DNA from: a virus
Strand: one strand, 5' to 3'
DNA: 36,725 bases
Virus record (IMG/VR): IMGVR_UViG_3300027734_000165
Coordinates: 1 to 36,725 of that record
Shown: one piece after another, positions 1-36,725 of the stretch
Position numbering within the stretch: the stretch's first letter is position 1
How the letters are laid out: the number at the start of each line of letters is the position of its first letter
The notes under the pieces: generated by a model
The model's database searches: none
What the model was told of the DNA's origin: nothing
What the model saw: the letters and a program-made list of their open reading frames with translations, nothing else
Made by a program: the position numbers and the translations under genes

Positions 1-156
1 ACCTTTTTTGAATTGTAGGTCTTTCTCATCAGAAATTACAGAGATATTATTCAAAGATACTATTATTTTGTCAATATCTTCTATCAAATCTTTCCACCCT
101 TGTTGAGACATCATCTCAAAACGAGCTTCGTAGTATTTTTGCAGTTCAGGAGTCAT
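1..156 (-). CDS. Partial small phage protein D, left-end copy (C-terminus off the edge)
   Basis: The start codon is at 156 on the minus strand and the frame stays open to base 1, so only the first 52 codons are present. The DNA matches the complete gene at 34885-35040 with two differences that I can find (near 100 and 144). The complete copy encodes 75 residues, highly charged and probably helical, ending in a repeated Leu/Glu pattern. Proteins like this occur beside head genes in podovirus-like phages, but I know no function. It follows gene A directly, stop against start. The truncation is a window-edge effect, not a mutation. Confidence 0.85.
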   Translation of the reverse strand, partial: MTPELQKYYEARFEMMSQQGWKDLIEDIDKIIVSLNNISVISDEKDLQFKKG

Positions 157-456
157 TTAAACTCCAATAGAGCCATTCATGTCAGCTTGGGACATTACCC
201 ATGCGTAACATTTAGCCAAGAAAGTTGCACCAGTTTGTGATTCAACTTCACTCAATGGGCAGTGGTATCTGCGGAATTCCACATCACGGGTGTCATCGTT
301 CTCAGGACGGGTTGCATAGCCAACAACATCTAGCATGACGCTATGACGACTGTCTGCATTGCGTGTGTAACTGATAGACGCAGTTGCTATGCGGAAGTAA
401 GCACCTGAGAATGGGATGCCGTATTGTGATTGTGTGAGGTCTAGTTGGATTGCCAT
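157..456 (-). CDS. Conserved small phage protein A, copy 1 (99 aa, function unknown)
   Basis: The 99-residue product begins MAIQLDL and contains the stretch YHCPLSEVE and a C-terminal FLAKCYAWVMSQ. It sits between fibre gene B and gene D in the late leftward block. I recognise it as a type of small protein common in uncultured tailed phages near fibre or head genes, without known role. A second copy lies at 35041-35340. The two differ at roughly one base in ten but at only about seven residues, so most changes are silent and both copies look selected. It has no signal peptide or membrane segment. A virion role is inference from position. Confidence 0.88.
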   Translation of the reverse strand: MAIQLDLTQSQYGIPFSGAYFRIATASISYTRNADSRHSVMLDVVGYATRPENDDTRDVEFRRYHCPLSEVESQTGATFLAKCYAWVMSQADMNGSIGV

Positions 457-471
457 GATATTTCCTTTAGG

Positions 472-1791
472 TTAAGCGTAATTTGTTTCTGTGGTTTGTA
501 TGGTAGCCACCCAACGGATATTGGTAGCGGCTGCTCCTGTGGCAGTTACTGCAAGTCCACCATTGGTTGTGTCTGCTGATAATGCTAATGTCCAAGCAGG
601 TACATTGCTAATAGCCGTGACAGTTGAAGCAACAAGTGTTGTTGTTCCTGCGTTTGCCTCTCTGCGAATCAAACCAGATACTTGCCAAGCGGCTGATGCT
701 GTTCCTCCAGATGCTTGTTGACGAGCAACAACTGTTCCTGTAAACGCATAAGCAGAATAATTAGCAAGAATAACTTGATTATTTGCATCTGCGGGTTGTA
801 AATCTGAAGTCAAAACAACAGCAATATTTGTTGTTGAGGCTTTTGCTAAAACATAAGTTGCAAATTGACAATCACCTTGTCCCGTAAATATAGTATATCC
901 ATAAGCATATTTACCTACAAGTTCAGCATTTGCATATGATCCAAGTGCTACTGCACCATTAATTGTGGCTTGACAACTATTGCCAATTGAAATTGTGTTA
1001 TTTGAAGTTGAAATTGGTGCTTGACCCAATGCAATTGAGTAACCACCTGAAGCCGTAGCTCTATACCCAATCGCTATTGCATGAGTGCTTCTTGCACCAT
1101 AGGTGCTTGTATTATTACCAATACCTGCCGCAAAAGAATTAGTACCAGAGGCATAAGAGCCTCCTAATGCCATAGCACCTGCACCTGTTACTGCTTGAGA
1201 GCCTGCATTTGCAGAGTTTCTTCCCAAAGCCATAGAGGCGGTAGAAGATGCGGTTGCCCCAACACCTATTGCAACAGAAGCACTACCACTTGCAGTTGAA
1301 CCACTCATTATTGCAATGGAATAATCTCCAGTAGCAATAGGTAATGCCGTTCCAACATCAAGGTTCTCAGCATAACCTCTCATGGTTTTTTTGTTGCCTG
1401 TTTCCCAGTTTGTACCATTACAAACAATTTGCATACCCTCACCACGCCTCAAAATGCGTGTTGTATATCCATCAATTGTTTCTGCGCCATTAGGATCAAT
1501 GGTAATAACATTTGTATTAGATGTAGAAGTATTCCAAATAACACAGTTAAAACCAGAACCCAATGTAGCGGCAGCAGTCAATGAAACAGTAAATGTGCCA
1601 CTTGTGCAGTTAATAATCTTACCCGCATCACCAGACACAACAGTGTAATTAGCAGTTTGGTTGCTAATTGTTAAAGTAGAACTACCACCACCGCCACCAA
1701 TGGCAGTACCATTTAAAAGCAGGCTAGTTCCATCACTACTTAAAACAACTGATGCGCCACTACCAGTATTGTTAATATTTACAGCACCCAT
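472..1791 (-). CDS. Fibre protein B with YadA-head-like repeats
   Basis: The 439-residue product has three parts. Residues about 1-135 form a beta-rich domain shared with gene C (motifs ITIDPNGAETIDG, RRGEG, KKTMRGYAEN). Residues about 150-290 are degenerate 14-residue repeats of the type S-x-AIG-x-x-ATASG, typical of trimeric autotransporter heads (Hep_Hag/YadA head). The C-terminal domain runs from about GQGDCQFA to WVATIQTTE. The likely role is a trimeric receptor-binding or tail-tip fibre. It lies 9 bases after paralogue C on the same strand. The right-end version of this locus lacks a separate B gene and instead joins a B-like C-terminus to C, so B looks gained or lost as a module. Confidence 0.85.
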   Translation of the reverse strand: MGAVNINNTGSGASVVLSSDGTSLLLNGTAIGGGGGSSTLTISNQTANYTVVSGDAGKIINCTSGTFTVSLTAAATLGSGFNCVIWNTSTSNTNVITIDPNGAETIDGYTTRILRRGEGMQIVCNGTNWETGNKKTMRGYAENLDVGTALPIATGDYSIAIMSGSTASGSASVAIGVGATASSTASMALGRNSANAGSQAVTGAGAMALGGSYASGTNSFAAGIGNNTSTYGARSTHAIAIGYRATASGGYSIALGQAPISTSNNTISIGNSCQATINGAVALGSYANAELVGKYAYGYTIFTGQGDCQFATYVLAKASTTNIAVVLTSDLQPADANNQVILANYSAYAFTGTVVARQQASGGTASAAWQVSGLIRREANAGTTTLVASTVTAISNVPAWTLALSADTTNGGLAVTATGAAATNIRWVATIQTTETNYA

Positions 1792-1800
1792 GATTTATCC

Positions 1801-3213
1801 TCAAGCATAAGTCACCTCAGAAGTTCGTATAGTAGCAACCCATTGAATGTTTACTGATGCAGCACCTGTAGCAGTCACCGCTAAACCTCCATTGGTTGTA
1901 TCAGCAGATAATGTTAAATCCCATGCTGAAGCACCCGCAGTTTTACTTAACACATTGATGTTAAAAGAGCCTAAAACAGTTGATGCGGCAGTTGCATCAC
2001 GCAAGATTGCACCTTTGATTTCCCAGGCGGCATAGTTACTTCCACCTGATGCTTGTTGTCTTGCAATGATTGTTCCGCTAAAAGCAAAGGCAGAATTGTT
2101 TGGCAGAATAACTTGATTTGTAGAACTAGCAGCAGCACCATCAGATGTTGCAACTACTGGTGTTGCAGAGGTTGTAGAGGCACGAAGGATAGTTACTCCA
2201 TATTGAGCATCACCTTGACCTGCAAAAAATCCACCAGCGTAATTATATTTGCCATAAACAGAAGAAACTGCTCCTGCTCCAAGAGCAACAGAATACCTAT
2301 AATCTGTTCTTGCTCCATCGCCAATAGCAATTGAACTTGCTCCACTAGCAGTAGGATTGGTAACGTAATAGTTATTTCCAATACAAACCGCACCTAAAGC
2401 ACTTGCAGTAGCTCCAGCACCTATTGCTAAAGTATTGGCGGCATTTGATGTTGATGTATCACCAATTGCAACAGCACTAGTTGCGCTTGCAGTTGCTCTT
2501 CGACCAAGTGCAATACTATTTGTACTTTTAGCCCCATAAGTACTTGTTCCGTTGGCTGCTACATGAACAGCAAACGAATCAGCTCCTGATGCGTAAGAAT
2601 TACCTAATGCTATTGCTCCTGCGCCTGTAGCAGTTGTTGCAGTGTATCCACCCGATCCACCACCTAAAGCTAATGAATAGTCAGAACCAGCGGTTGCAAC
2701 ATAACCGCCCGCCATTGCACCCGTACCAGAAGCAGTGCAAGTGTATCCAACAGCAATAGAGTCTTGACCTGATGCATTTGATGCCCCACCTACAGCAGTA
2801 CCACCACTTCCTGCGGCAGATGCTCTTGTATAACTAATAGGGATATTTTCTGCATATCCACGCATTGTCTTTTTATTACCTGTTTGCCAATTTGTGCCAT
2901 CACAGATAATTTGTGTTCCCTCACCCCTACGGAGAATTACAGTAGTTCTTCCATCAATTGTTTCAGCACCATTAGGGTCAATAGTTATTACATCCGTAGA
3001 AACTGTAGATGTATTCCAAATAAAACAATTGAAACCTCTGGTAAAACTACTAGCAGGCGCAATTGAAATAGTATAAACACCAGATGTAGAGTTAATAATA
3101 AAGTTGCTATCACTAGGCGTTACTATATATGCCGCAGTAATGTTCTTTATCTGCAAGTTTCCTAATGGTTGAACCGCATAGTTAAATGCGGCTAACTGGT
3201 TACTCGCACTCAT
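1801..3213 (-). CDS. Fibre protein C with YadA-head-like repeats
   Basis: The 470-residue paralogue of B begins MSASNQLAAFNYAVQ and has the same N-terminal beta domain (ITIDPNGAETIDGRTT). It then has an extended run of S-x-ALG/AIG repeats separated by TATG or TASG spacers, and a C-terminal domain ending WVATIRTSEVTYA. The repeats match the family pattern of YadA-type trimeric heads, which fold as left-handed parallel beta-rolls. The start overlaps the stop of the preceding gene by one base (TAATG). DNA from about 2204 to 3186 recurs identically at the right end of the window. The gene is probably a host-recognition fibre; the receptor cannot be read from sequence. Confidence 0.86.
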   Translation of the reverse strand: MSASNQLAAFNYAVQPLGNLQIKNITAAYIVTPSDSNFIINSTSGVYTISIAPASSFTRGFNCFIWNTSTVSTDVITIDPNGAETIDGRTTVILRRGEGTQIICDGTNWQTGNKKTMRGYAENIPISYTRASAAGSGGTAVGGASNASGQDSIAVGYTCTASGTGAMAGGYVATAGSDYSLALGGGSGGYTATTATGAGAIALGNSYASGADSFAVHVAANGTSTYGAKSTNSIALGRRATASATSAVAIGDTSTSNAANTLAIGAGATASALGAVCIGNNYYVTNPTASGASSIAIGDGARTDYRYSVALGAGAVSSVYGKYNYAGGFFAGQGDAQYGVTILRASTTSATPVVATSDGAAASSTNQVILPNNSAFAFSGTIIARQQASGGSNYAAWEIKGAILRDATAASTVLGSFNINVLSKTAGASAWDLTLSADTTNGGLAVTATGAASVNIQWVATIRTSEVTYA

Positions 3214-3695
3214 CAGTAATCTCCACCAACTGCTTGTACTGCAATGGCGATATTAGTGCCACCAGCCGCTACAGTTGTACCCGCATAAATACGATAACTA
3301 GCAGGTAAGTTAAGACCACCTGTAGGTACTGGCAAAGCATAAACTGTAAGTGCTGTTGTTCCAAGAGCAGTTACCGCAGTAGCAGGCAAGGCCACCTCAC
3401 CTAAAAAGATGTTGTTTCCCGCAGTAGTATTTGCTGATCCGTTGTTCATCCAAAAACGAACTACAGTTGCCGCTGATGTACCTGATGCCGTTGCACCATT
3501 GGTAGAACTAAAACGACAAGTAATCTGGTCAACACGAGAACCATTAGCCCCTGCCGTATAAACAAGTGCCATTGGTGTTCCAACTGCTTCAGTACCATCA
3601 AAGGCTTTGGTATTGGTCATTGCAGTACTAAGTACGGCATTCAATGCCCCTACATTAGGGGTTTGGGAAAATATAGGGGTTGCTGTTACTGGCAT
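3213..3695 (-). CDS. Small virion protein of the fibre module (160 aa)
   Basis: The product begins MPVTATPIFSQTPN and is rich in Ala, Thr, Gly and Val, with a central VYTAGANGSRVDQI segment typical of small beta-sandwich phage structural proteins. It has no membrane segment or catalytic motif. It lies between the Mtd_N-type fibre and fibre C, with a one-base overlap to C, so it is probably co-translated with the fibres. A role as fibre accessory, decoration or adhesin domain is inferred from composition and place. I know similar proteins in uncultured tailed phages but no experimentally assigned function. Confidence 0.8.
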   Translation of the reverse strand: MPVTATPIFSQTPNVGALNAVLSTAMTNTKAFDGTEAVGTPMALVYTAGANGSRVDQITCRFSSTNGATASGTSAATVVRFWMNNGSANTTAGNNIFLGEVALPATAVTALGTTALTVYALPVPTGGLNLPASYRIYAGTTVAAGGTNIAIAVQAVGGDY

Positions 3696-3697
3696 GG

Positions 3698-5026
3698 TTA
3701 GAATCCTCCGAAATTATTTGCTAGGTAGATGTTAGCGCCTGCACTGCTACCGCCTCCACCACCGCCCGTTGATGCTATGGTAATTGATCCTGAAGCATTT
3801 GTAATTGTAATGTTTGAGCCAGCAGTCAATGTTGTACGAGTAAAGCCAGTTCCGTTGCCAATATCCAACGCTCCATTCGCAGGAGTAGATGTCAAACCAG
3901 TTCCACCATTGGCTACCGCAACTGTTCCTGTCACATTTGAGGCAGTGCCAGTTGTGTTTTGATTCAATGTAGGAACATCTGCGGCTTGGATTGTGGACAT
4001 CACCACATTTGTGCCATTACCACGCAGATAAGAACCACTTGTAACCGCACCAGCAAAGGCATTCATTGCTAGTTGTGCAGTTGTTTGACCAGAACCACCA
4101 TTAGCTAATGCTACAGTGCCAGTGACGTTAGAAGCAGTACCAGTTGTATTCTGATTTAACGTAGGAATATCGTTAGCAACAATAGCCCTGAATGTAGGAG
4201 AACCAGAAGAACCATTAGGCGCTGCTAAGACAAAATTAGCAGTCTTAGAAGCATAAGGATTCTGGGTATCTCCGTAGTTTGCTGCCAGGCTAATTGCAGG
4301 AGTTGTACCACCACTAGAGACAACTGGTGAAGTACCAGTAACCGAAGTGACAGTACCAGAGTTAGTAGCCGCAATAGAGATTGAGCCACCGCCATTGGTG
4401 ATAGAAATACCACTACCAGCAGTCAAAGTAGCTTTGGTAAGTGTATTTCCTGTACTGTTGCCAATTAACAACTGTCCGTCAGTGTAGGTTGTTTGTCCTG
4501 TACCGCCAGAAGTTATTGCCAAAGTTGCTGATAGACCAGCCGCAGTTCCTGTTGTATTTTGGTTAAAAGTTGGGAAGGAAGTAAGTGAAGCAGCAGAGCC
4601 ATTAGGTGCTAGAACGTCAGTTCCAATAACCAAACCAAGAGATGCTCTACCAGTAGCCGCTACTAAGTTAGTCGAACCACCATCCCACTGTCTTCTCTCA
4701 GAATAAGCAGAATCCCAAGTAGTTTGACTCGAAGTTGTAGGGATAGAGTATCCCGCTTGTAGAGAAACAGCCAATGTCCCAGAGCTTGTGATCGGTGAGC
4801 CAGCTACTGACAAACCAGTAGGAACAGACATGGCAACAGAGGTAACAGTTCCTGAACCGCCACCACCTGTACTTAGATAAGACAGTGAAGTCCAAGAACT
4901 TGAGCCGTTACCTACTTTTAGCTTTGCTGTATCTTTTTCAAGACCTAATTCACCCTCTGCAAGAGTAGGGTTAGTAGATGTCCAGTCAGCCGCTAAACCA
5001 CGCCTGAGTTGTATTTGAATCGCCAT
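3698..5026 (-). CDS. Tail fibre with Mtd_N-like N-terminal domain
   Basis: The 442-residue product opens with MAIQIQLRRGLAADW, then LAEGELGLEKDTAKLKVG and WTSLSYL. This is the pattern of the N-terminal domain of Bordetella phage major tropism determinant (Mtd_N), which attaches many fibres to the virion. The rest is a Thr/Ser/Gly/Asn-rich shaft in which modules of the form LNQNTTGTASNVTGTVA recur at least three times. The C-terminus is short and Gly-rich (GGGGGSSAGANIYLANNFGGF). There is no C-type lectin variable domain like that of Mtd itself, and no reverse transcriptase is present. It overlaps the collagen-like gene by one base (TAATG). A fibre assignment is secure; the receptor is unknown. 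Confidence 0.86.
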   Translation of the reverse strand: MAIQIQLRRGLAADWTSTNPTLAEGELGLEKDTAKLKVGNGSSSWTSLSYLSTGGGGSGTVTSVAMSVPTGLSVAGSPITSSGTLAVSLQAGYSIPTTSSQTTWDSAYSERRQWDGGSTNLVAATGRASLGLVIGTDVLAPNGSAASLTSFPTFNQNTTGTAAGLSATLAITSGGTGQTTYTDGQLLIGNSTGNTLTKATLTAGSGISITNGGGSISIAATNSGTVTSVTGTSPVVSSGGTTPAISLAANYGDTQNPYASKTANFVLAAPNGSSGSPTFRAIVANDIPTLNQNTTGTASNVTGTVALANGGSGQTTAQLAMNAFAGAVTSGSYLRGNGTNVVMSTIQAADVPTLNQNTTGTASNVTGTVAVANGGTGLTSTPANGALDIGNGTGFTRTTLTAGSNITITNASGSITIASTGGGGGGSSAGANIYLANNFGGF

Positions 5027-5511
5027 TAAATGCCTCCTGCATCAATTGGTGTTGTGCCACCATAGACGCTATTTGGAGCACCGCCATCAAGATTGGCAAA
5101 TGCTTCACCATTTACACCAGATACGCCAGCAGCGCCTTGTGGCCCACGCTCACCTTTTTCACCAACAACGTCACCAACATTGATAACTTTGCCATCAGAA
5201 AAGGTAACTATTAGTGAGCCATCAAAATCTATTTTGGTACTGACAATGGAGACACCATCTTCTCCATCTTTTCCATCAGAACCATCTTTTCCGTCTACGC
5301 CATCTTTACCATTTATGCCATCAGCACCACGCTCACCTTGTGAGCCTTGATCGCCTTTATCACCTTTTTCACCCTGTGGGCCTTGAAGTTTTTGAACTTC
5401 TTGAACATGAGTTTCAAGTTTTGGCAGCTTCTTATCAAGCAAAATAGCCAATGCAGACAACTTTGCATCAGTTGACGCATCTGATAGCAGTATCTGCTTA
5501 ATGTCCATCAT
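5026..5511 (-). CDS. Collagen-like virion protein (161 aa)
   Basis: A helical N-terminus of about 45 residues (MMDIKQILLSDASTDAKLSA, then a Lys/Glu/Gln-rich stretch) is followed by about 14 uninterrupted Gly-x-y triplets (GPQGEKGDKGDQG then repeated GKDG). A short beta segment (SIVSTKIDFDGSLIVTFSDG), a second Gly-x-y stretch (GEKGERGPQGAAG) and a C-terminal tail complete it. Collagen triplets in phage proteins form trimeric stalks. It overlaps the portal stop by four bases (ATGA) and the fibre start by one, so it probably contributes a trimeric spacer to the adhesion apparatus. Attachment to the downstream Mtd_N fibre is inference. Confidence 0.87.
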   Translation of the reverse strand: MMDIKQILLSDASTDAKLSALAILLDKKLPKLETHVQEVQKLQGPQGEKGDKGDQGSQGERGADGINGKDGVDGKDGSDGKDGEDGVSIVSTKIDFDGSLIVTFSDGKVINVGDVVGEKGERGPQGAAGVSGVNGEAFANLDGGAPNSVYGGTTPIDAGGI

Positions 5512-7526
5512 TGACCAATAATGCTTTTAAGGAACTCATTATCTGTTGTTTTTTGCTTATCACTCTTAGAGTTTTGCAATTCAACAACTTTTAACTTGTT
5601 TTCGATGTCTTTTTCTTTCAACATCAACTCAGCAATCTTGACTCGCTTATTGAACTCTTGCTCAGCAAGTAAATCGTTGTTTGGAAGGTTTTTAGTAGCC
5701 GCTGCCAGTGTCTTTGCTTGCAATTCTTGTGGCATTAACTGAACTTCAGTCATCAATTTAGCCGCTTCAGCACGATTTTGCTCTGCTTGGGTAGTCTGAA
5801 CAGCAATCTGAGCCTGTGCAGCTTGCAAAGCAAGTTGTTGTTGAGCTTGTTGGGCTTGTTGAGCCTGTGGATCAGGTTTAGCCATCTCATCCAACATCTG
5901 AATCAACTCATATCTGTTAGACAGTGATGAATTAGCCATGATTCCCTTCAGAATCACAGGCAAAACAGGTGTATTTGGGCCAAGAGTCTGCAACAAAGAG
6001 ATAAATTGCTGTTGTTCATGCTCTCTAGCGATAATTCCAAGTGCCGCAGTCGGAATAAACTTCATGTCAACAGTAGGATAACGCTCAGGGTCAAACTGCA
6101 TATAGCGATATGCTGCTTTACTGATAAACGGAATCATAAAGTCTTCTTGGAAGTTGACCAATGTACGCTTGTACTTCTTGATAATCGAGGCAACAGCCAT
6201 CGAAATACCGCCCTGACCTGCATCTCTAGACACAGCACTGACCATTCCTTGAGAATCTAGTGTTCCAGTAGCTTGAAGGAGCATTCTTTCAAACTCTTTG
6301 GCAGTTGACAGGTTAGAACCATCAGTATTACCAAACTTAAACGGGAACAGAATCTCATTTGGATTGCCGTTTGTCAGGATTGCCTTGCCTGGCTTAACCT
6401 CAAACTTAGCACCACGAGGCAGGCGTGTGGCATCCATAGCAATCATGGGGCTTGTTGTGAGCGCCAATGAGTCTAAGTGGCTACGAACTTGGGCATCAAT
6501 AGCCTTTTGTGAGTTGTAAGCCTTCTCAACAGTGCCACGACCCAACAAACGATTAGGAACTGTATCGTCTTGATAAGCCAGAATTGGCCTATCTTTCATC
6601 ATGTAAGGATTCTTTTCTGCTTTTAACAGAGTTCCATCGTTGGCAATGACGACAATAGCCTCAACCAGATCAGAATACTCATCTTGAACAGAGTCTTCAG
6701 GGAACAAGTCCTCTATCTCTTCTTCGTTTTCTAGTTGTTCAATGTACTCTCTAGGAACTAATCCGTAGTAAGTTAAAAGTTTTACTTTATCGTCTTCGTA
6801 TTGAGTAACTTCTTGGGTAGGCTCTAAGTCGCTATCCATAGAGTCAGTGCTGATCTCTACCTTGCGATAGATGCCATCTTCTTGACCTTTAACGATCTTG
6901 TGGATAGAGACATACTTCTCAATAGCCACACCCATGCAGTCCTCAATGGTTGTTCCATTAGGGTCAAACAAGAAGTTACGGGGGTTAACAGGAACAATCT
7001 TGACTGCGATTCGGTCTTGTTCTACAACTCCAATAGCCGCTTGACCAGTTTGACCAGGTATGGGTTGGGTAGAAGGAACATAGACCTTCTCTGTTTTGAC
7101 AACAATCTCACCGATTCCAGTACCATAGAGTTCAGCAAGAAGCTCAATCTGGTCAATAGACTTCCTGATCTTATCTACTTTGAAGTCTTCCATGAGTTGT
7201 GCTTTTAAAGCAGCAACATCTAAAGGATTGTTATTGACATCACGAATATCGTCTTGAATGTCAAAGAACTCACCCTGACCAAAGATAGCTTCCATGATCT
7301 CGGCATGGCGTGTTTCTACGGCTTGTTGGGTAGCGGGAGTAACGATTCTAGAACGCTCAGAATCACGGGTTTTGTCTTGGATGTCCCACTCACCATTGAA
7401 GATACGCTCATACTCTAGCCAATCAGATAGGTAGTTAGTATCTCGATAATCTCGCCAACGATCACAATGGTTAACCACAAAAGAGACTAACTCTTTATCT
7501 GAATCTGTCGGCTCTTGGAATTCCAT
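5508..7526 (-). CDS. Portal protein
   Basis: The 672-residue protein lies directly downstream of the large terminase (1 base between them), the usual place for a portal. The N-terminus carries a WRDYRDTNYLSDWLEYERIFNGEW region and ETRHAEIMEAIFG. The middle has the portal-type stretch IVPVNPRNFLFDPNGTT and a helical clip/stem region. The C-terminal 120 residues are a Gln/Ala-rich probable coiled coil (QQAQQAQQQLALQAAQAQ), as in the long barrel portals of podoviruses. Size and style resemble SU10/P22-type portals. It should form the dodecameric DNA channel of the procapsid, and function is assigned with good confidence. Confidence 0.88.
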   Translation of the reverse strand: MEFQEPTDSDKELVSFVVNHCDRWRDYRDTNYLSDWLEYERIFNGEWDIQDKTRDSERSRIVTPATQQAVETRHAEIMEAIFGQGEFFDIQDDIRDVNNNPLDVAALKAQLMEDFKVDKIRKSIDQIELLAELYGTGIGEIVVKTEKVYVPSTQPIPGQTGQAAIGVVEQDRIAVKIVPVNPRNFLFDPNGTTIEDCMGVAIEKYVSIHKIVKGQEDGIYRKVEISTDSMDSDLEPTQEVTQYEDDKVKLLTYYGLVPREYIEQLENEEEIEDLFPEDSVQDEYSDLVEAIVVIANDGTLLKAEKNPYMMKDRPILAYQDDTVPNRLLGRGTVEKAYNSQKAIDAQVRSHLDSLALTTSPMIAMDATRLPRGAKFEVKPGKAILTNGNPNEILFPFKFGNTDGSNLSTAKEFERMLLQATGTLDSQGMVSAVSRDAGQGGISMAVASIIKKYKRTLVNFQEDFMIPFISKAAYRYMQFDPERYPTVDMKFIPTAALGIIAREHEQQQFISLLQTLGPNTPVLPVILKGIMANSSLSNRYELIQMLDEMAKPDPQAQQAQQAQQQLALQAAQAQIAVQTTQAEQNRAEAAKLMTEVQLMPQELQAKTLAAATKNLPNNDLLAEQEFNKRVKIAELMLKEKDIENKLKVVELQNSKSDKQKTTDNEFLKSIIGQ

Positions 7527-7527
7527 T

Positions 7528-8787
7528 CTATACCCCTGAAATAATATCTATCGGTTGCCATTCCTCGCTCTCATCTTCTTCCATATAAGATGTCACAGCA
7601 AGCTGGTCAATGTAACTAAGAGAGTCAGGAAGGTCATCGTGAACCCCTTGTGCGGGAAACAGGATTAACTGGTCTACAAACTCATCCCAATCTTCCTCTG
7701 AATTTAACACAATTCTGCCATGTTCGAACCTACCTTGTAAAGCCCAGATTATCCTATCTGCTTTTTTTCTATTCCCATGCGTTAAATCCACAATATGGGC
7801 AAAGGTGTTGTTCTTTCTCATTAAGTCGCTCAGATAGGGTAAAACAGCGTTCTTTAACGCCCCCCTCTCTATCCCCACGCTAATAGGTCTGTAGTCTCGA
7901 ATAGCTATCAGTATCTTAGAGGCGGTCTCTCGGATGTCCCATCTTCCGTGTTCAATCTTCTCAACAAACCACTTCCCATCATCAGTCACCTTAACGATAG
8001 AGATAGCAGACTCGTCCAGACGCTTCTTAGAATTGGCTGCTTGTTTGGCAACTTCCTCAAATCCCGCTAGGTCAACAGCAATGAAATACGACCCGTAATC
8101 AGGTCTTACCCCGTATTTAATCCACTCTTCTTTAAAGATGTCAGAACCCGCATTGGTGAAACTTGCCATAAACTCTTGTTTAAAAGCAAAGGAACTTAGC
8201 GTCTTCTTAGCTGAGTCTATCTCTGTTTGGTCAATCAAAGGGTTATCAGCAGTGGTGAAATGCCATGACTTCCAATCAGGATCATTCCCATTCTCACCCA
8301 ACTTATAGGTATCGTAGAACCAATTACGACCTTTAGGAGTCCCAATAAAGAGCGCTCTACCCTTCTTGTCAGACAGAGAAGCCCGTATAACCTGTTCCCA
8401 GGCCTCTGGCTTAATGTCTGCTACCTCATCTAGCACCGCATAGGTTAAAGACACACCACGAAGGGTATCAGGTCTATCCGCACCACGAACGTATATCCTA
8501 GCCCCGTTTATCAGGGTAATGTCTAGGTTGTTCACATGACTGCTCTGAATAACCTCTCTACCAAGGTCTAACAGCAAGTCCCAGATAATCTGTCTTGACT
8601 GTCCCATCGTTGGACTCACGTAAAGCACCGCAGAGCCTTGTGGACACTTGAGTCCTTCAATCAGTAGGGTAACTGCCGCCATCCTAGACTTACCACACCT
8701 ACGCCCAGCAGCCACAACCTTGAACCTTGTTTTATCAGCAAAGACCTGTTGTTGCCAAGGAAGTAGACTAAAGTTTAAATCAGCCAT
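7528..8787 (-). CDS. terL: Terminase large subunit
   Basis: The 419-residue product has the packaging-motor architecture. The Walker A motif GRRCGKS is at residues 28-34. The Walker B with catalytic acid, TYAVLDEVADI, has Asp-Glu at 120-121. A coupling motif, FIGTPKGRN, is near 148. The nuclease domain starts at YFIAVDLAG (Asp239), has a further acidic cluster at GIERGA, and ends with HDDLPDSLSY. It belongs to the Terminase_6 type. The start overlaps the small-subunit stop by eight bases, and the portal follows immediately. It drives ATP-dependent DNA translocation into the procapsid and cuts the concatemer. Confidence 0.93.
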   Translation of the reverse strand: MADLNFSLLPWQQQVFADKTRFKVVAAGRRCGKSRMAAVTLLIEGLKCPQGSAVLYVSPTMGQSRQIIWDLLLDLGREVIQSSHVNNLDITLINGARIYVRGADRPDTLRGVSLTYAVLDEVADIKPEAWEQVIRASLSDKKGRALFIGTPKGRNWFYDTYKLGENGNDPDWKSWHFTTADNPLIDQTEIDSAKKTLSSFAFKQEFMASFTNAGSDIFKEEWIKYGVRPDYGSYFIAVDLAGFEEVAKQAANSKKRLDESAISIVKVTDDGKWFVEKIEHGRWDIRETASKILIAIRDYRPISVGIERGALKNAVLPYLSDLMRKNNTFAHIVDLTHGNRKKADRIIWALQGRFEHGRIVLNSEEDWDEFVDQLILFPAQGVHDDLPDSLSYIDQLAVTSYMEEDESEEWQPIDIISGV

Positions 8788-12481: not shown

Positions 12482-12910
12482 TTAGATCAAGTCCTCTTTA
12501 ACCATAACTTCCACAGCACCGATCTCTGACCAAACCTTCGTAATGTGTAGGTTTACCACTTGTTTGTCATCCAAGTAAACGTGACCATTCATTGCGTCTA
12601 GAAAGCACTTTGCACAATTATCAATGTCTGGCTTCTTTAATGGCTTGGTTATTCCTTCTAAGGCATCCTTGCGCTTCTGTTTGCTGAATGACTTGGGTAT
12701 CTCCATCCGAATGTAGATTGCCACTGTTACAGGGGTTTCCAAGGGCGGTGATGCGCCCATAGCACACCGAGCCATGTACCTGATTTCATCTTCATAGGTC
12801 TTTGTTTTCTCAGGGGTGTAAGCATGGGTAAATGCTCCCCTTCTGGCAAACCTTGGGCGACCTTTGCCTTGTGGTTCTCCATAGACTGTATACATCACAA
12901 CAAAAGTCAT
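12482..12910 (-). CDS. rusA: RusA-family Holliday junction resolvase
   Basis: The 142-residue product has the RusA layout. An N-terminal strand carries GEPQGKGRPR (11-20), and the acidic catalytic cluster is KPDIDNCAKCFLDAMNG (Asp95, Asp97, Asp105) followed by YLDDKQV (Asp114-115). These correspond to the aspartates that bind Mg in E. coli RusA. The enzyme cuts four-way junctions, here probably to clear recombination intermediates before packaging. It overlaps the gene upstream by four bases. It fits with ERF annealing protein across the divergent region at 15 kb. Length is close to the family norm. Confidence 0.9.
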   Translation of the reverse strand: MTFVVMYTVYGEPQGKGRPRFARRGAFTHAYTPEKTKTYEDEIRYMARCAMGASPPLETPVTVAIYIRMEIPKSFSKQKRKDALEGITKPLKKPDIDNCAKCFLDAMNGHVYLDDKQVVNLHITKVWSEIGAVEVMVKEDLI

Positions 12911-13131: not shown

Positions 13132-13941
13132 TCATATTTCTGTGCGTTTTGGGTAGGGTTTTATTAAATGTTTAATGGCATTCAGATGTTTTTTCTGAGT
13201 GTTCTGAGTCCCAATAAAAGCAAAATATCTTCCCTTACTGTGCTGCTTAATTTTTTGCACTGTAGGAAAATGCTTTTTAATGTTCTCAATCTGTGTATTT
13301 CCGCAAACTGCTCTGATGCTTCTTGATGTCCAAATCTTCCCATTGATTAACCAGCCATCACGATCAAGTTTACGGCTTTTTACATTGGGATTACCATCAC
13401 GCATTGAGCCAACATAATGAAAGCCACAAGCCTGATAAATTGTCCCAATCTCTCCAGCAGCTTCGTCAACAGTAGAAGTAACTACTTCATATTTTTTCGG
13501 CAACATCTTCATACTTTGGCGAATTAGTTTGCTTGCGCTATGTGGGTGTGCCCAATGGACACAAGCACCTCTGCTTAACAAAATCATCTTTCCTTCATAG
13601 CCATATTTACTCCAATCTGCACCTGCTAAACCTTTTTCTCTTGTTATCTTTCCAAGGTTTTCAGAGTATTCAGGGCCATAACAAACTACTCCAGCACAAA
13701 ACCCCTCAAAAAAGATTCCATAACAATGCCAAACAACTGCTGGCATACATCCAAGCCATTCATAGTCTTTAATGATCTTTTCAGCCATTTGATAACTTAC
13801 TTCACGCACTTCTGCTTTTTTGATGTCGGTATCAATCTTTGACCACCAATTACCTAAAAGGTCAGAATCAAGATTTTCTAAGCGTCTTTTTTCTCGAATC
13901 TGTTTTTGCCATGCAGTAGATGTATCTAAAAGTAAATTCAT
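13132..13941 (-). CDS. Mom-like GNAT-fold DNA-modification protein
   Basis: The 269-residue product has an N-terminal charged helix region, then IIKDYEWLGCMPAVVWHCYG (57-76), FCAGVVCYGP (81-90), LLSRGACVHWAHPHSASKLI (121-140) and a stretch from STVDEAAGEIGTIYQACGFH to YVGSMR (156-180). These are the hallmarks I know from the phage Mu Mom family and its relatives, acyltransferase-fold proteins that convert adenine to a bulky derivative and block restriction. It overlaps the replication gene by four bases. The extra C-terminal 90 residues, basic, may bind DNA. Catalytic activity here is inference; a protein-acting GNAT is the alternative. Confidence 0.75.
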   Translation of the reverse strand: MNLLLDTSTAWQKQIREKRRLENLDSDLLGNWWSKIDTDIKKAEVREVSYQMAEKIIKDYEWLGCMPAVVWHCYGIFFEGFCAGVVCYGPEYSENLGKITREKGLAGADWSKYGYEGKMILLSRGACVHWAHPHSASKLIRQSMKMLPKKYEVVTSTVDEAAGEIGTIYQACGFHYVGSMRDGNPNVKSRKLDRDGWLINGKIWTSRSIRAVCGNTQIENIKKHFPTVQKIKQHSKGRYFAFIGTQNTQKKHLNAIKHLIKPYPKRTEI

Positions 13942-15272: not shown

Positions 15273-15887
15273 ATGGGTGTACATAAAAAGCTGATGGATG
15301 CAAGGATTCTTTTGCAACAAGCACCACTAAAGAAGTCAGGTCACAACAAGTTTGCTGGCTACCAGTATTTCGAGCTTGGTGACTTTCTGCCAACAATCAA
15401 TTCAATCTTCTTCAAGGTTGGTCTGTGCGGTGTTGTTTCGTTCGATAAAGAACTTGCAACCCTGACTATCACAGATACTGAAGACAACTCAGAGATCAAG
15501 CTGACAAGCCCTATGGCAGATGCCAACCTAAAGGGATGCCATCCTATCCAGAACCTTGGTGCGGTAGAGACGTATACCAGGCGCTATCTCTGGGTGTCAG
15601 CAATGGAAATCGTAGAACACGATGCCCTAGATTCTTCTGCACCATTGAAAGAGGATAAGGTCATCATCAGCCCTACTCAAGGCGCACAAGACAATATCCC
15701 CATTGAGGAACTAAGGTATCTTGAAGAAGTGGCAATAGAACTGATTGCCATGTGTGAGCAAGGTGACCCCAAGGCAGCTTGGGTTAAGTTGGAAGGAGAG
15801 AACTTGGACAGCGAACAAAAGGTTGCCCTGTGGACACTCCTACCTAGTAAAGTAAGAAGTGCGTTAAAGAAAGCGAAGGAAATCTAA
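15273..15887 (+). CDS. erf: ERF-family single-strand annealing protein
   Basis: The 204-residue product has the ERF signature: KSGHNKFAGYQYFELGDFLP (residues 21-40), a central beta region, and GAVETYTRRYLWVSAMEI (86-103), the conserved G-x-x-x-TY-x-RRY block. ERF proteins anneal complementary single strands and promote recombination and circularisation, as in P22. The C-terminal part is helical and less conserved. TAATG overlap couples it to a protein with an SSB-like tail, and rusA lies in the opposed block, completing an annealing-resolution pathway. Ribosome site AAAGGAG precedes ATG 15273. Confidence 0.88.
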   Translation: MGVHKKLMDARILLQQAPLKKSGHNKFAGYQYFELGDFLPTINSIFFKVGLCGVVSFDKELATLTITDTEDNSEIKLTSPMADANLKGCHPIQNLGAVETYTRRYLWVSAMEIVEHDALDSSAPLKEDKVIISPTQGAQDNIPIEELRYLEEVAIELIAMCEQGDPKAAWVKLEGENLDSEQKVALWTLLPSKVRSALKKAKEI

Positions 15888-32786: not shown

Positions 32787-33776
32787 TCAAGAAGGTACAA
32801 CCAAGGCAAACATGGAAGAAGAAGTAGCTGCACCAGTAGTAGCAGCGTTTCTCAAAGCGGCAACACCATACAAAGTGTCAGATGTAAACAAAGTAGCAAG
32901 GTACTCTTGCTTGTACTGAACTTGTGAACGGATACCAACTTGCTCAACCAGAACCATAGATTCCTTGTGACCCATCAAGCAGACACGACCAATAGAAGTT
33001 CCGCTTGCTGGGTAAGCAGCAGTTGCAGAAGCATGGTCAGCATTGCTAGAAGTGAACACGGGAATACCATAAAGGTTACCGATTTCACCATTGCGGATAG
33101 CGTTGCCATCACCCACAAAAGCCTGCTCAGTGTAACGGGCAAGACCCATCAATGTGTTACGGCTTGAAGGAGGAATGATGAAGAAGCGACCATCCATAGG
33201 AGTGTCGTTGTCATCCAAACGCTGAATAGTACGACGAATAGCCGCATCAGTCAGAGCAGAGGCGTTACCAGCGCTTGAGTTAGCACTGTAGTCAAAGGCT
33301 GTTGTGCCATCACCACCGATGAAACCACCAGTGTAACGTGCGCTATCGGCAGTACCACCATTGGCAGAACGACCCAACTGAATCAAGTCTGTATCGACTT
33401 GTTTAGCCAAGGCATAACCTGCGTCAGATGTGTAGAAGTTACGCATAGAGTTCAGGGCTTGAACTTCTGCAATATCTTCAATCAAACGGCTATATTCATA
33501 GTGCTTGTTGATAGATACTTGAACTTCAGATGCTGTATCTACGATGAGGGTAACTGCATCAGTTTTGCTCTTCAAAGATGCGTTGCCACGACCAGGGGCT
33601 GGAATGTGAACTGTGTCACCTTTCTTGCCCTTGAAGTTCATCTTCATAACCAAGTTCGCTAGAACAAGGTTCTTTTTGTAACTAGCAATAATTTCATCAC
33701 TCCAGATTTCTGGAATGAAGTTAGCTGCGGACGTTACTGTGGTTGCATTATTAGGTGCGAATGCTGTATTAGCCAT
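32787..33776 (-). CDS. Major capsid protein
   Basis: The 329-residue product begins MANTAFAPNNATTVTSAANF, then IPEIWSDEIIASYKKNLVLA and the coat-type stretch GKKGDTVHIPAPGRGNASLK. It continues through RLIEDIAEVQALNSMRNF, a PMDGRFFIIPPSSRNTLMG segment and GNLYGIPVFTSSN, all typical of HK97-fold coat proteins of podovirus and siphovirus type. It follows the scaffold, and a terminator follows it. GGAGATTTAATC is a strong ribosome site, as expected for the most abundant protein. Confidence 0.92.
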   Translation of the reverse strand: MANTAFAPNNATTVTSAANFIPEIWSDEIIASYKKNLVLANLVMKMNFKGKKGDTVHIPAPGRGNASLKSKTDAVTLIVDTASEVQVSINKHYEYSRLIEDIAEVQALNSMRNFYTSDAGYALAKQVDTDLIQLGRSANGGTADSARYTGGFIGGDGTTAFDYSANSSAGNASALTDAAIRRTIQRLDDNDTPMDGRFFIIPPSSRNTLMGLARYTEQAFVGDGNAIRNGEIGNLYGIPVFTSSNADHASATAAYPASGTSIGRVCLMGHKESMVLVEQVGIRSQVQYKQEYLATLFTSDTLYGVAALRNAATTGAATSSSMFALVVPS

Positions 33777-33800
33777 GATTAAATCTCCAATAAATTAAGT

Positions 33801-34544
33801 TTACTTAACTCTACCCTCTTGATACGCTTGCATGATTTCATCAGAAAGCGCCTCATAGCGGTTAGGGTCTTGCATTTTTAGCCGAATAAGGTCTGCCCTA
33901 CGATAAACCCGTTTTGAGGATTCACCAGAACCACCTACATCTACTCCAACTGCTTTCAAATTCTGCTTGCGAGTGGCTTCTCCAGCATCACTCACTTGCT
34001 TCTGTTTGACAGATCGAAGTTCTTTGTAAGTCGTTAGCAGTTCATTGGCAGAATCATAATCGAAATCAGCATCAGCACGTTTAAACAGATCAATTCGTAC
34101 AGGGCTAGATTTAACCCAGTTTGTAAAGTCCTCATTTTTAGCAATATCGCCAAAATCAGGATGTTCTTGTGCTAACTTTTGCTGAATTTGCGCCCTTTTC
34201 ATTTCGAGAGTCGCTTGGCGAGCCGCAATAATGTCAGGGTGACTATCAACTGTCCTTTGGACTGCCTTCTGAGGATTCTCAAAGAAATCTACTTCAGGCT
34301 CTACTTCTCTAGTTTGCTGTTGTCTAGAACTTAGGTTCTGCTTGATAAGTTCATCGGCTAACTTTCTAACTTCGCCAACCTCTTGTGCTTGCTTTCCAAT
34401 GAGCTTTTCAGCCTCTTGGTGCATTCTCACAATGTCATCTAAACTTTTATCCCTGTATTTTTCAGGGAGTTCAGCCTTCTGCGAAATCTTCTGTTCTTCG
34501 ATTTCTAACTCACCAAACTCTTCTTTTTCATTGTCAACTAACAT
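33801..34544 (-). CDS. Scaffolding protein
   Basis: The 247-residue product is highly charged and helical, with Glu/Lys/Gln-rich coiled coils (MHQEAEKLIGKQAQEVGEVR, NPQKAVQRTVDSHPD) and a basic C-terminal part (SKRVYRRADLIRLKMQDPNR) that fits a coat-binding helix. Position directly before the major capsid gene, 24 bases apart, is the standard scaffold position. AAAGGAAAAAGT is the ribosome site. No protease signature is seen, so it is probably a release-type scaffold. Confidence 0.87.
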   Translation of the reverse strand: MLVDNEKEEFGELEIEEQKISQKAELPEKYRDKSLDDIVRMHQEAEKLIGKQAQEVGEVRKLADELIKQNLSSRQQQTREVEPEVDFFENPQKAVQRTVDSHPDIIAARQATLEMKRAQIQQKLAQEHPDFGDIAKNEDFTNWVKSSPVRIDLFKRADADFDYDSANELLTTYKELRSVKQKQVSDAGEATRKQNLKAVGVDVGGSGESSKRVYRRADLIRLKMQDPNRYEALSDEIMQAYQEGRVK

Positions 34545-34601
34545 ACTTTTTCCTTTTTCCTGCCGTTATCGGTTGTAGGAGATTCAACTCGGCATAATTG
34601 C

Positions 34602-34829
34602 TTATGAGTTGAGTTTCTGCTCAGATTTCAACTTGTCAGTATGACTTTTCCCAAATTTGGCATGAGCCGTTGGGAAAGAACCAGACCATCCTTCAAGTTT
34701 AAAAGCTGGAGCAGAGAGAGTGCGGTTAGCCAAAGCGCCACACTCACACTTTAAGTTCGTTGCCTCATAAACAACAAACTTTTCCGTTTTGTGTCCGTTT
34801 TCACAGACGTAATCATAAAATCTCTTCAT
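34602..34829 (-). CDS. Small zinc-ribbon phage protein (75 aa)
   Basis: The product begins MKRFYDYVCENGHKTEKFVV and has a C/H pair (Cys9, His13) and CECG (Cys28, Cys30), an FmdB-type zinc ribbon. It is followed by the conserved stretch LSAPAFKLEGWSGSFPTAHA and a Lys-rich tail. Proteins of this type lie just before scaffold genes in many environmental podoviruses; role unknown. It overlaps gene D by 17 bases and is 57 bases before the scaffold. Confidence 0.8.
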   Translation of the reverse strand: MKRFYDYVCENGHKTEKFVVYEATNLKCECGALANRTLSAPAFKLEGWSGSFPTAHAKFGKSHTDKLKSEQKLNS

Positions 34830-35040
34830 ACGCCCTCTCGCTGATCTCTTTAAGATTTCTCAGCCAAGTTAATATAGAAAGTTCACCTTTTTTGAATTGT
34901 AGGTCTTTCTCATCAGAAATTACAGAGATATTATTCAAAGATACTATTATTTTGTCAATATCTTCTATCAAATCTTTCCACCCCTGTTGAGACATCATCT
35001 CAAAACGAGCTTCGTAGTATTTTTGCAATTCAGGAGTCAT
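34813..35040 (-). CDS. Small helical phage protein D, complete copy (75 aa)
   Basis: The product begins MTPELQKYYEARFEMMSQQG, then WKDLIEDIDKIIVSLNNISV and a KKGELSILTWLRNLKEIS segment ending ERAYEEIL. It is helical and charged; a frequent small gene between portal and head genes in podovirus-like genomes. A truncated second copy lies at 1-156 and is nearly identical. The 3' end overlaps the zinc-ribbon gene. Function is not known. Confidence 0.85.
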   Translation of the reverse strand: MTPELQKYYEARFEMMSQQGWKDLIEDIDKIIVSLNNISVISDEKDLQFKKGELSILTWLRNLKEISERAYEEIL

Positions 35041-35340
35041 TTAAACCCCAATCGAACCATTCATGTCAGCTTGGGACATTACCCATGCGTAACATTTAGC
35101 CAAGAAAGTTGCACCAGTTTGTGATTCAACTTCACTCAATGGGCAATGGTATCTACGAAATTCCACATCACGAGTGTCATCATTCTCAGGGCGTTTTGCA
35201 TAACCAACAACATCTAACATGACGCTATGACGACTGTCTGAATTGCGGGTGTAACTGATAGATGCAGTTGCAATGCGAAAGTAAGCACCCGCAAATGGAA
35301 CGCCATATTGAGATGTTGATAAATCAAGTTGTATCGCCAT
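35041..35340 (-). CDS. Conserved small phage protein A, copy 2 (99 aa)
   Basis: The ATG at 35340 is the true start, as in copy 1; a longer frame to 35391 would run into the fibre gene. Differences from copy 1 include STSQYG for TQSQYG, VPFA for IPFS, NSDS for NADS and YAKR for YATR; most other changes are silent. This shows both alleles are under selection. It follows the chimeric fibre gene by eight bases and abuts gene D. Confidence 0.87.
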   Translation of the reverse strand: MAIQLDLSTSQYGVPFAGAYFRIATASISYTRNSDSRHSVMLDVVGYAKRPENDDTRDVEFRRYHCPLSEVESQTGATFLAKCYAWVMSQADMNGSIGV

Positions 35341-35348
35341 AATAATCC

Positions 35349-36725
35349 TTATGCGTATGTTGTTTCTATTGTTTGAATGGTAGCAACCCATTGGATATTT
35401 GTAGCCGCTGCACCAGTAGCAGTTACCGTAAGTCCACCATTAGTTGTATCAGCAGTTAATGCTAATGTCCAAAGAGGAGTGTTAATAATTGCAGTTACCA
35501 TTGAAAAAACAAGAGTTGTACTTGCTGCATTTGCCTCTCTGCGGATTAAGCCTTCAACTTTCCATGCGGCTGATGCTGTTCCACCCGATGCTTGTTGACG
35601 AGCTACAACTGTTCCAGTAAATGCAAATGCTGAACTATTTGGCAAAATAACTTGATTTGTAGAACTAGCAGCAGCTCCATCTGAAGTTGCAACTACTGAT
35701 GTTGCAGAAGTTGTTGAGGCTCTTAAATTTGTTATTCCATACTGAGCATCACCTTGACCTGCAAAAAATCCACCAGCGTAATTATATTTGCCATAAACAG
35801 AAGAAACTGCTCCTGCTCCAAGAGCAACAGAATACCTATAATCTGTTCTTGCTCCATCGCCAATAGCAATTGAACTTGCTCCACTAGCAGTAGGATTGGT
35901 AACGTAATAGTTATTTCCAATACAAACCGCACCTAAAGCACTTGCAGTAGCTCCAGCACCTATTGCTAAAGTATTGGCGGCATTTGATGTTGATGTATCA
36001 CCAATTGCAACAGCACTAGTTGCGCTTGCAGTTGCTCTTCGACCAAGTGCAATACTATTTGTACTTTTAGCCCCATAAGTACTTGTTCCGTTGGCTGCTA
36101 CATGAACAGCAAACGAATCAGCTCCTGATGCGTAAGAATTACCTAATGCTATTGCTCCTGCGCCTGTAGCAGTTGTTGCAGTGTATCCACCCGATCCACC
36201 ACCTAAAGCTAATGAATAGTCAGAACCAGCGGTTGCAACATAACCGCCCGCCATTGCACCCGTACCAGAAGCAGTGCAAGTGTATCCAACAGCAATAGAG
36301 TCTTGACCTGATGCATTTGATGCCCCACCTACAGCAGTACCACCACTTCCTGCGGCAGATGCTCTTGTATAACTAATAGGGATATTTTCTGCATATCCAC
36401 GCATTGTCTTTTTATTACCTGTTTGCCAATTTGTGCCATCACAGATAATTTGTGTTCCCTCACCCCTACGGAGAATTACAGTAGTTCTTCCATCAATTGT
36501 TTCAGCACCATTAGGGTCAATAGTTATTACATCCGTAGAAACTGTAGATGTATTCCAAATAAAACAATTGAAACCTCTGGTAAAACTACTAGCAGGCGCA
36601 ATTGAAATAGTATAAACACCAGATGTAGAGTTAATAATAAAGTTGCTATCACTAGGCGTTACTATATATGCCGCAGTAATGTTCTTTATCTGCAAGTTTC
36701 CTAATGGTTGAACCGCATAGTTAAA
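35349..36725 (-). CDS. Chimeric fibre gene (C N-terminus, B-like C-terminus), partial at right edge
   Basis: The frame is open through the right edge; by comparison with C, about 10 N-terminal codons are missing. From 35743 to 36725 the DNA is identical to 2204-3186 of gene C. From about 35742 down to the stop it is different. It first resembles C (NLRASTTSATSVVATSDGAA), then switches near AFAFTGTVVARQQ to a B-like end (GGTASAAWKVEGLIRREANA to WVATIQTIETTYA). It has the same YadA-head-like repeats and fibre role as C. It is a recombinant or an allele, not a simple copy. Confidence 0.85.
   Translation of the reverse strand, partial: FNYAVQPLGNLQIKNITAAYIVTPSDSNFIINSTSGVYTISIAPASSFTRGFNCFIWNTSTVSTDVITIDPNGAETIDGRTTVILRRGEGTQIICDGTNWQTGNKKTMRGYAENIPISYTRASAAGSGGTAVGGASNASGQDSIAVGYTCTASGTGAMAGGYVATAGSDYSLALGGGSGGYTATTATGAGAIALGNSYASGADSFAVHVAANGTSTYGAKSTNSIALGRRATASATSAVAIGDTSTSNAANTLAIGAGATASALGAVCIGNNYYVTNPTASGASSIAIGDGARTDYRYSVALGAGAVSSVYGKYNYAGGFFAGQGDAQYGITNLRASTTSATSVVATSDGAAASSTNQVILPNSSAFAFTGTVVARQQASGGTASAAWKVEGLIRREANAASTTLVFSMVTAIINTPLWTLALTADTTNGGLTVTATGAAATNIQWVATIQTIETTYA

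Follow-up and report, generated by a model that had tools for sequence, protein, structure and literature searches.

The modular exchange of phage fibres is already well known, both for a fibre gene moving with its small neighbour (PMC9786124) and for the shuffling of C-terminal domains (PMC10684548). In Litunavirus, the segment described as recombinant takes in the fibre gene together with the small gene next downstream of it (PMC9786124), while receptor-binding proteins of closely related phages are described as having near-identical N-terminal parts and shuffled C-terminal domains (PMC10684548). Relaxed homologous recombination on diverged DNA has been reported for Rad52-like phage recombinases of temperate coliphages, with Erf among the proteins tested (PMC3945230). 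On the computational side, co-occurring strains are described as a source of loops and bulges in the graphs of de Bruijn assemblers (PMC11443906).

The locus studied here is like that of Litunavirus in that both the fibre and the small downstream gene are involved; however, Litunavirus is another phage group, and the account of its recombination describes no change in fibre number (PMC9786124). A shared stem with a swapped C-terminal domain is also found in the receptor-binding proteins discussed above, whereas here the C-terminal domains belong to homologous classes and the swap goes together with having one versus two fibre genes (PMC10684548). An Erf-family gene is present here too and may act likewise, although the relaxed recombination was demonstrated for temperate coliphages (PMC3945230). 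Strain loops in an assembly graph would explain how two versions come to stand in one contig and why a flank appears twice (PMC11443906). The YadA-like trimeric head repeats (PF05658) are common to all three fibre genes, named B, C and X below, and occur here in phage fibres together with a C-terminal beta domain. In practical terms, what looks like gene conversion at a virus contig's terminus can instead be a seam where a circular map holding two strain versions overlaps itself, and such a seam is worth ruling out before paralogues are counted. A swap of one-fibre and two-fibre cassettes between conserved anchors, if true, would be a clear natural case of uncultured phages changing their host-binding tips.

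The stretch of DNA analysed, hereafter the window, is an entire IMG/VR virus record of 36,725 bp, assigned to the class 'linear' in the record annotation. Comparison of the window with itself showed that the left end of the contig (1-780) resembles 34885-35657 with 86% identity. The match is exact between 1-99 and 34885-34983, which marks the closure point of the map, and stands at 97% over 300 bases. This repeat of the right-end region at the left end was absent from an earlier sequence-only reading of the same DNA. A second self-match pairs 1823-3186 with 35371-36725, so that both contig ends repeat one region in the same order. The spacing between the two renderings of the left end is 34,884 bases. 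A separate metagenome record in IMG/VR, IMGVR_UViG_3300027733_000686 (7,523 bp; L006 below), reads, over all its 7523 bases, as window 32975-36725 running straight into window 3187-6958, with zero differences. Counted by segment, it shares 3751 bases with window 32975-36725 and 4755 with window 2204-6958, and 983 of these are common to both. Since L006 connects the contig's right end to a point within its left part, and both ends repeat one another, the contig reads as a circular map that continues past its start. The map is closed for the X version, two versions of the locus stand within one contig, and the edge between them is sharp. We consider it likely that the contig represents a single phage, assembled as a circular map of about 33.5 kb in its one-fibre form (33,539 bases, or 36725 - 3186) that overran its own start by 1.8 kb, and that the fibre locus was written in two versions belonging to co-occurring variants, most likely exchanged by homologous recombination. 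The virion molecule would be circularly permuted. The exact 99-base start may reflect an assembly k of 99, which is only suggestive because identity nearby is also high. The contig end, at window 3186, lies 27 bases inside the fibre gene, near the start of divergence among the fibre genes of relatives, and may hint at a third fibre version in the sample.

All genes of the locus are on the minus strand. Fibre gene X (35349-36725) is cut at its 5' side by the contig end, is whole in L006 (467 aa), and consists of an N-terminal domain, YadA-like head repeats and a C-terminal domain of class II. Fibre gene C (1801-3213; 470 aa) has a stem identical to that of X and a class I C-terminal domain, and is one intact frame in which the C-terminal domain is complete. 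Fibre gene B (472-1791; 439 aa) combines the N-terminus type of second fibre genes in tandem relatives with a class II C-terminal domain. The head-repeat profile was matched by B, C and X, with scores of 38.1, 53.6 and 54.4 bits against a curated cut-off of 25. Upstream of the fibre locus lies a 160-aa gene, g160 (3213-3695), which is a conserved anchor in relatives. Downstream lies a small gene, present as g116 (35041-35391) in the X version and as g99 (157-456) in the two-fibre version, with divergence between the two rising from position 262. The X version of this gene has an ATG 17 codons earlier and overlaps the end of X, while most relatives carry the 99-aa form with a gap of about 9 bases. 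In L006, X is complete and is the sole fibre gene, between g160 and g116; in the window, C adjoins the same g160. As X and C thus share the same place and neighbours, X on the one hand and C with B on the other are alternative fillings of a single locus; they do not make up three genes within the same genome. The one-fibre version consists of X and g116 (right end), the two-fibre version of C, B and g99 (left end), and the two versions share everything from 2204 toward the portal gene. The gene at 3698-5026 (minus strand), two genes away from the fibre on the upstream side, encodes a protein whose N-terminal domain is that of a major tropism determinant (PF18454).

To the C-terminal domain, an all-beta fold was assigned by structure prediction, with a pLDDT of 91.0 in one of five models and 67-71 in the others. 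Among solved structures, its best matches were phage tailspikes and a tail fibre (TM 0.42-0.50), and among predicted viral structures the nearest were mostly phage proteins, some of them named YadA-like. The whole C protein gave weak matches to three adhesin-type chains among the solved structures. The C-terminal domain may well be the fibre tip or binding part, to which the modelled likeness to tailspikes lends weak support, and exchange of the fibre would then affect host recognition.

The sequence-only reading had reported about 983 bases of identity between X and C, an abrupt collapse of identity to the left of it, and a later shift from C-like to B-like sequence. All three were reproduced, with small corrections. 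Positions 35743-36725 equal 2204-3186 in 983 of 983 bases without a mismatch, and the first mismatch leftward is the base pair 35742/2203, so that the earlier boundary of 35742 is in fact the first mismatched base. The edge (2203/2204) falls at codon 337 of C, just after GQGDAQ, between the head repeats and the C-terminal domain. Beyond it, X and C agree in 84 of 100 bases (C 2104-2203), in 120 of 150 (2054-2203), and in 33 of the 50 at 2004-2053. A maximum chi-square scan (1203 ungapped sites, 54 mismatches) placed the break at 2204 with a value that none of 1000 site shuffles reached. In codons 338-390 (n = 53), X and C differ by 16 silent differences and 7 amino-acid changes. Identity therefore declines in two stages, a sharp step at 2204 and a second, softer drop near ARQQASGG, where X leaves C and turns B-like, although its identity to B there is only 63-92% per 50 columns. 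Because X and C are still about 80% alike over the 150 bases left of the edge, the step and the class switch are two separate transitions. The motif G.G[DN].Q was considered as a general crossover signal and rejected, as its position at the domain boundary is limited to B, C and X/L006; in L011 it is found elsewhere in the protein.

The other end of the block is the last base of the contig. On the map, this stretch of X (35743-36725, minus strand) is a second rendering of 2204-3186 cut by the contig end, and L006 runs on from it into window 3187-6958 without a difference. The identity is thus that of a common flank truncated by the contig end, and its length of 983 bases is without biological meaning. 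Assembly had been named beforehand as a possible source of the block, and it accounts for part of it, namely the length and the right edge. The sharp left edge probably marks the difference between two virus variants and not a copy event within one genome. Of the recombination or gene conversion that had been proposed for it, homologous recombination between strains fits the edge, and similar edges were seen in nine of twelve chosen pairs of related loci (below), but gene conversion within a single genome, from one gene to another, does not, given that X and C have the same neighbours.

Profiles for the N-terminal part of the fibre, its C-terminal domain and the neighbouring genes were applied to 91 IMG/VR loci (L006-L096) and two pieces of the window. 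Both anchor genes were found in order in 11 loci from 10 contigs outside the window, L006 included and L007 and L080 being one contig. A single gene with both N-terminal and C-terminal domains stood between the anchors in 10 loci, that is, in nine of the 10 contigs (L035 and L085 among these are 99.7% identical), and two fibre genes in none of the 10. In the tenth contig, L079, the fibre is split into two ORFs. These separate N-terminal and C-terminal ORFs (L079 6483-7744) possibly reflect a frameshift or a true two-part fibre. By this gene order X is the ordinary single-fibre form. Elsewhere, tandem fibre genes stand in L008, L009 and L012: a class I gene comes first, then, 3 bases on, a second gene beginning with MGAVNI, as B does, and next g99. 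L021 also has two fibre genes, spaced farther apart. The two-fibre design is thus a natural one. At L007 3669-7568, on the contig shared with L080, the 160-aa gene has a class I fibre on its upstream side and a class II fibre on its downstream side, a further layout of these modules.

In a tree of the C-terminal domains (33 rows, 25 of them different), for which the bootstrap had not settled, the tail of C grouped with class I (95/91) and the tails of X and B with class II (98/98). Class I consists of upstream fibre genes (six rows, about four of them independent), and the first gene of L021 falls elsewhere. In 20 of 20 class II rows, near-duplicates counted, the gene stood directly before g99 or g116, against none of the six class I rows. 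The rule that ties g99 to class II is one-sided, as g99 also follows genes of rows outside both classes (L013-L018). Since the C tail belongs with upstream genes, and X and B with genes directly before g99, it is C and not X that looks hybrid by its C-terminal domain, with an X-type stem and an upstream-type tail. A more speculative extension, to which we give little weight, is that the C-terminal domains form two position-bound classes, so that one crossover within the fibre gene and one in g99 would turn one fibre type into two with each tip still matched to its place; g99 would perhaps be a partner of the class II tip, and a single population would maintain several versions alongside one another.

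The X junction was found in the viral collection, outside the window, in L006 only, which confirms the X version. The C-type junction and gene B had no 31-mer match in other records of this collection, which may omit records very near the window, and the nearest relative of B was 61% identical in amino acids. As C and B are found in no other record, the link of the C tail to the stem at 2204-3186 rests on one contig, and the two-fibre version with this stem is a real molecule by inference. Bacterial and archaeal genome contigs gave no match to a 23-mer of the X-type junction. Searches for named phage relatives by DNA returned none for 34885-36725 and only short matches for 1-8000; by protein, they returned one weak match for C and, for the capsid protein, only matches below 60% identity.

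These results bear on a reading in which the assembler switched strains, C and B coming from a second, more distant strain joined near 2204 through k bases that the two have in common; the true stem would then be unlike that of X and the edge would be an artefact. The reuse of sequence in the 983-base block up to the contig end, as expected of a reused graph edge, is in keeping with this, as are the absence of C and B from other viral records and the backing of L006 for the X side only, and de Bruijn assemblers are described as joining strains at stretches longer than k (PMC11443906). Nevertheless, both ends of the C and B segment anchor exactly on the same genome (at the 99-base closure point and from 2204 onward), and the intact frame of C with its complete C-terminal domain also argues against a false join. 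We regard such a switch as unlikely. A much smaller probability is given to X, C and B being three fibre genes of one genome, with the 983 bases resulting from a recent gene conversion or duplication. The identity and its sharp edge would suit it, but the block stops at the contig end, relatives in which both anchors are present carry a single fibre locus in the interval from g160 to g99, and L006 sets X beside the very g160 that C adjoins, with identical flanks on both sides. The L006 join rules out three paralogues with gene conversion.

Equally improbable is that X is a deletion product formed by recombination of C with B inside a two-fibre genome. Its 5' part is C-like and its tail is of the class of B, and the sequence-only reading had called X the chimera. 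The 3' part of X is, however, identical to neither, g116 differs from g99, and the tail agrees with B only to the extent given above. A recent deletion should have kept both sides identical and is rejected on this ground, while an older one leaves the identical stem unexplained. Least probable of all is a programmed switching of fibre ends by an invertase, a shufflon or a diversity-generating retroelement. That the contig holds two versions sharing a stem might call it to mind; yet no invertase, integrase or reverse transcriptase was seen among the scanned proteins (the scan left some small ORFs aside), the inverted repeats at the fibre locus are short and mostly imperfect, and the difference is an exchange of a whole domain instead of point changes in a cassette.

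Recombination is the most likely cause of the two versions, and the flanks of the locus are consistent with it. In 12 hand-picked pairs of related loci, identity dropped sharply at or inside the fibre-gene region, after the well-conserved 160-aa gene, in nine, in some of which the compared stretch then ends. The pairs L043/L044, L050/L055 and L035/L085, nearly identical over the compared range, showed no drop, and in L023/L064, L023/L065 and L064/L065 identity was high again past the fibre. Homologous exchange of modules gives this picture, a swapped fibre flanked by conserved anchors. Over window 171-250, the small gene g99/g116 agrees at 97-99% between the two versions and with L085; over 251-410 its identity to L085 is 93-95%, whereas the surrounding sequence is far less similar to L085. 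This island of identity suggests that exchange may occur between phage species. When window 1-410 and 34885-35294 were set against L085 at about 7800-8215, identity was 93-99% over 171-410, and the adjacent head genes were mostly 60-75% identical.

The most likely mechanism would be homologous recombination between related phages that swaps the two-fibre cassette with a single fibre. One crossover would fall near 2204, where the C-terminal domain takes over from the YadA-like head repeats, and the other within the conserved small gene downstream of the fibre. The outcome would be a replaced fibre tip and a switch between one fibre gene and two, in either direction. Two proteins of the phage would probably assist, a role that we infer from their genes. 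The candidate agent of exchange is an Erf-type single-strand annealing protein (15273-15887, plus strand; PHROG 155, 5.4e-20; Pfam ERF, 1.2e-8), and a RusA-type Holliday-junction endonuclease is encoded at 12482-12910 (minus strand; Pfam PF05866, 1.4e-36). At 13132-13941 (minus strand) lies a gene for a Mom-like DNA modification protein (PHROG 1384, Pfam Mom).
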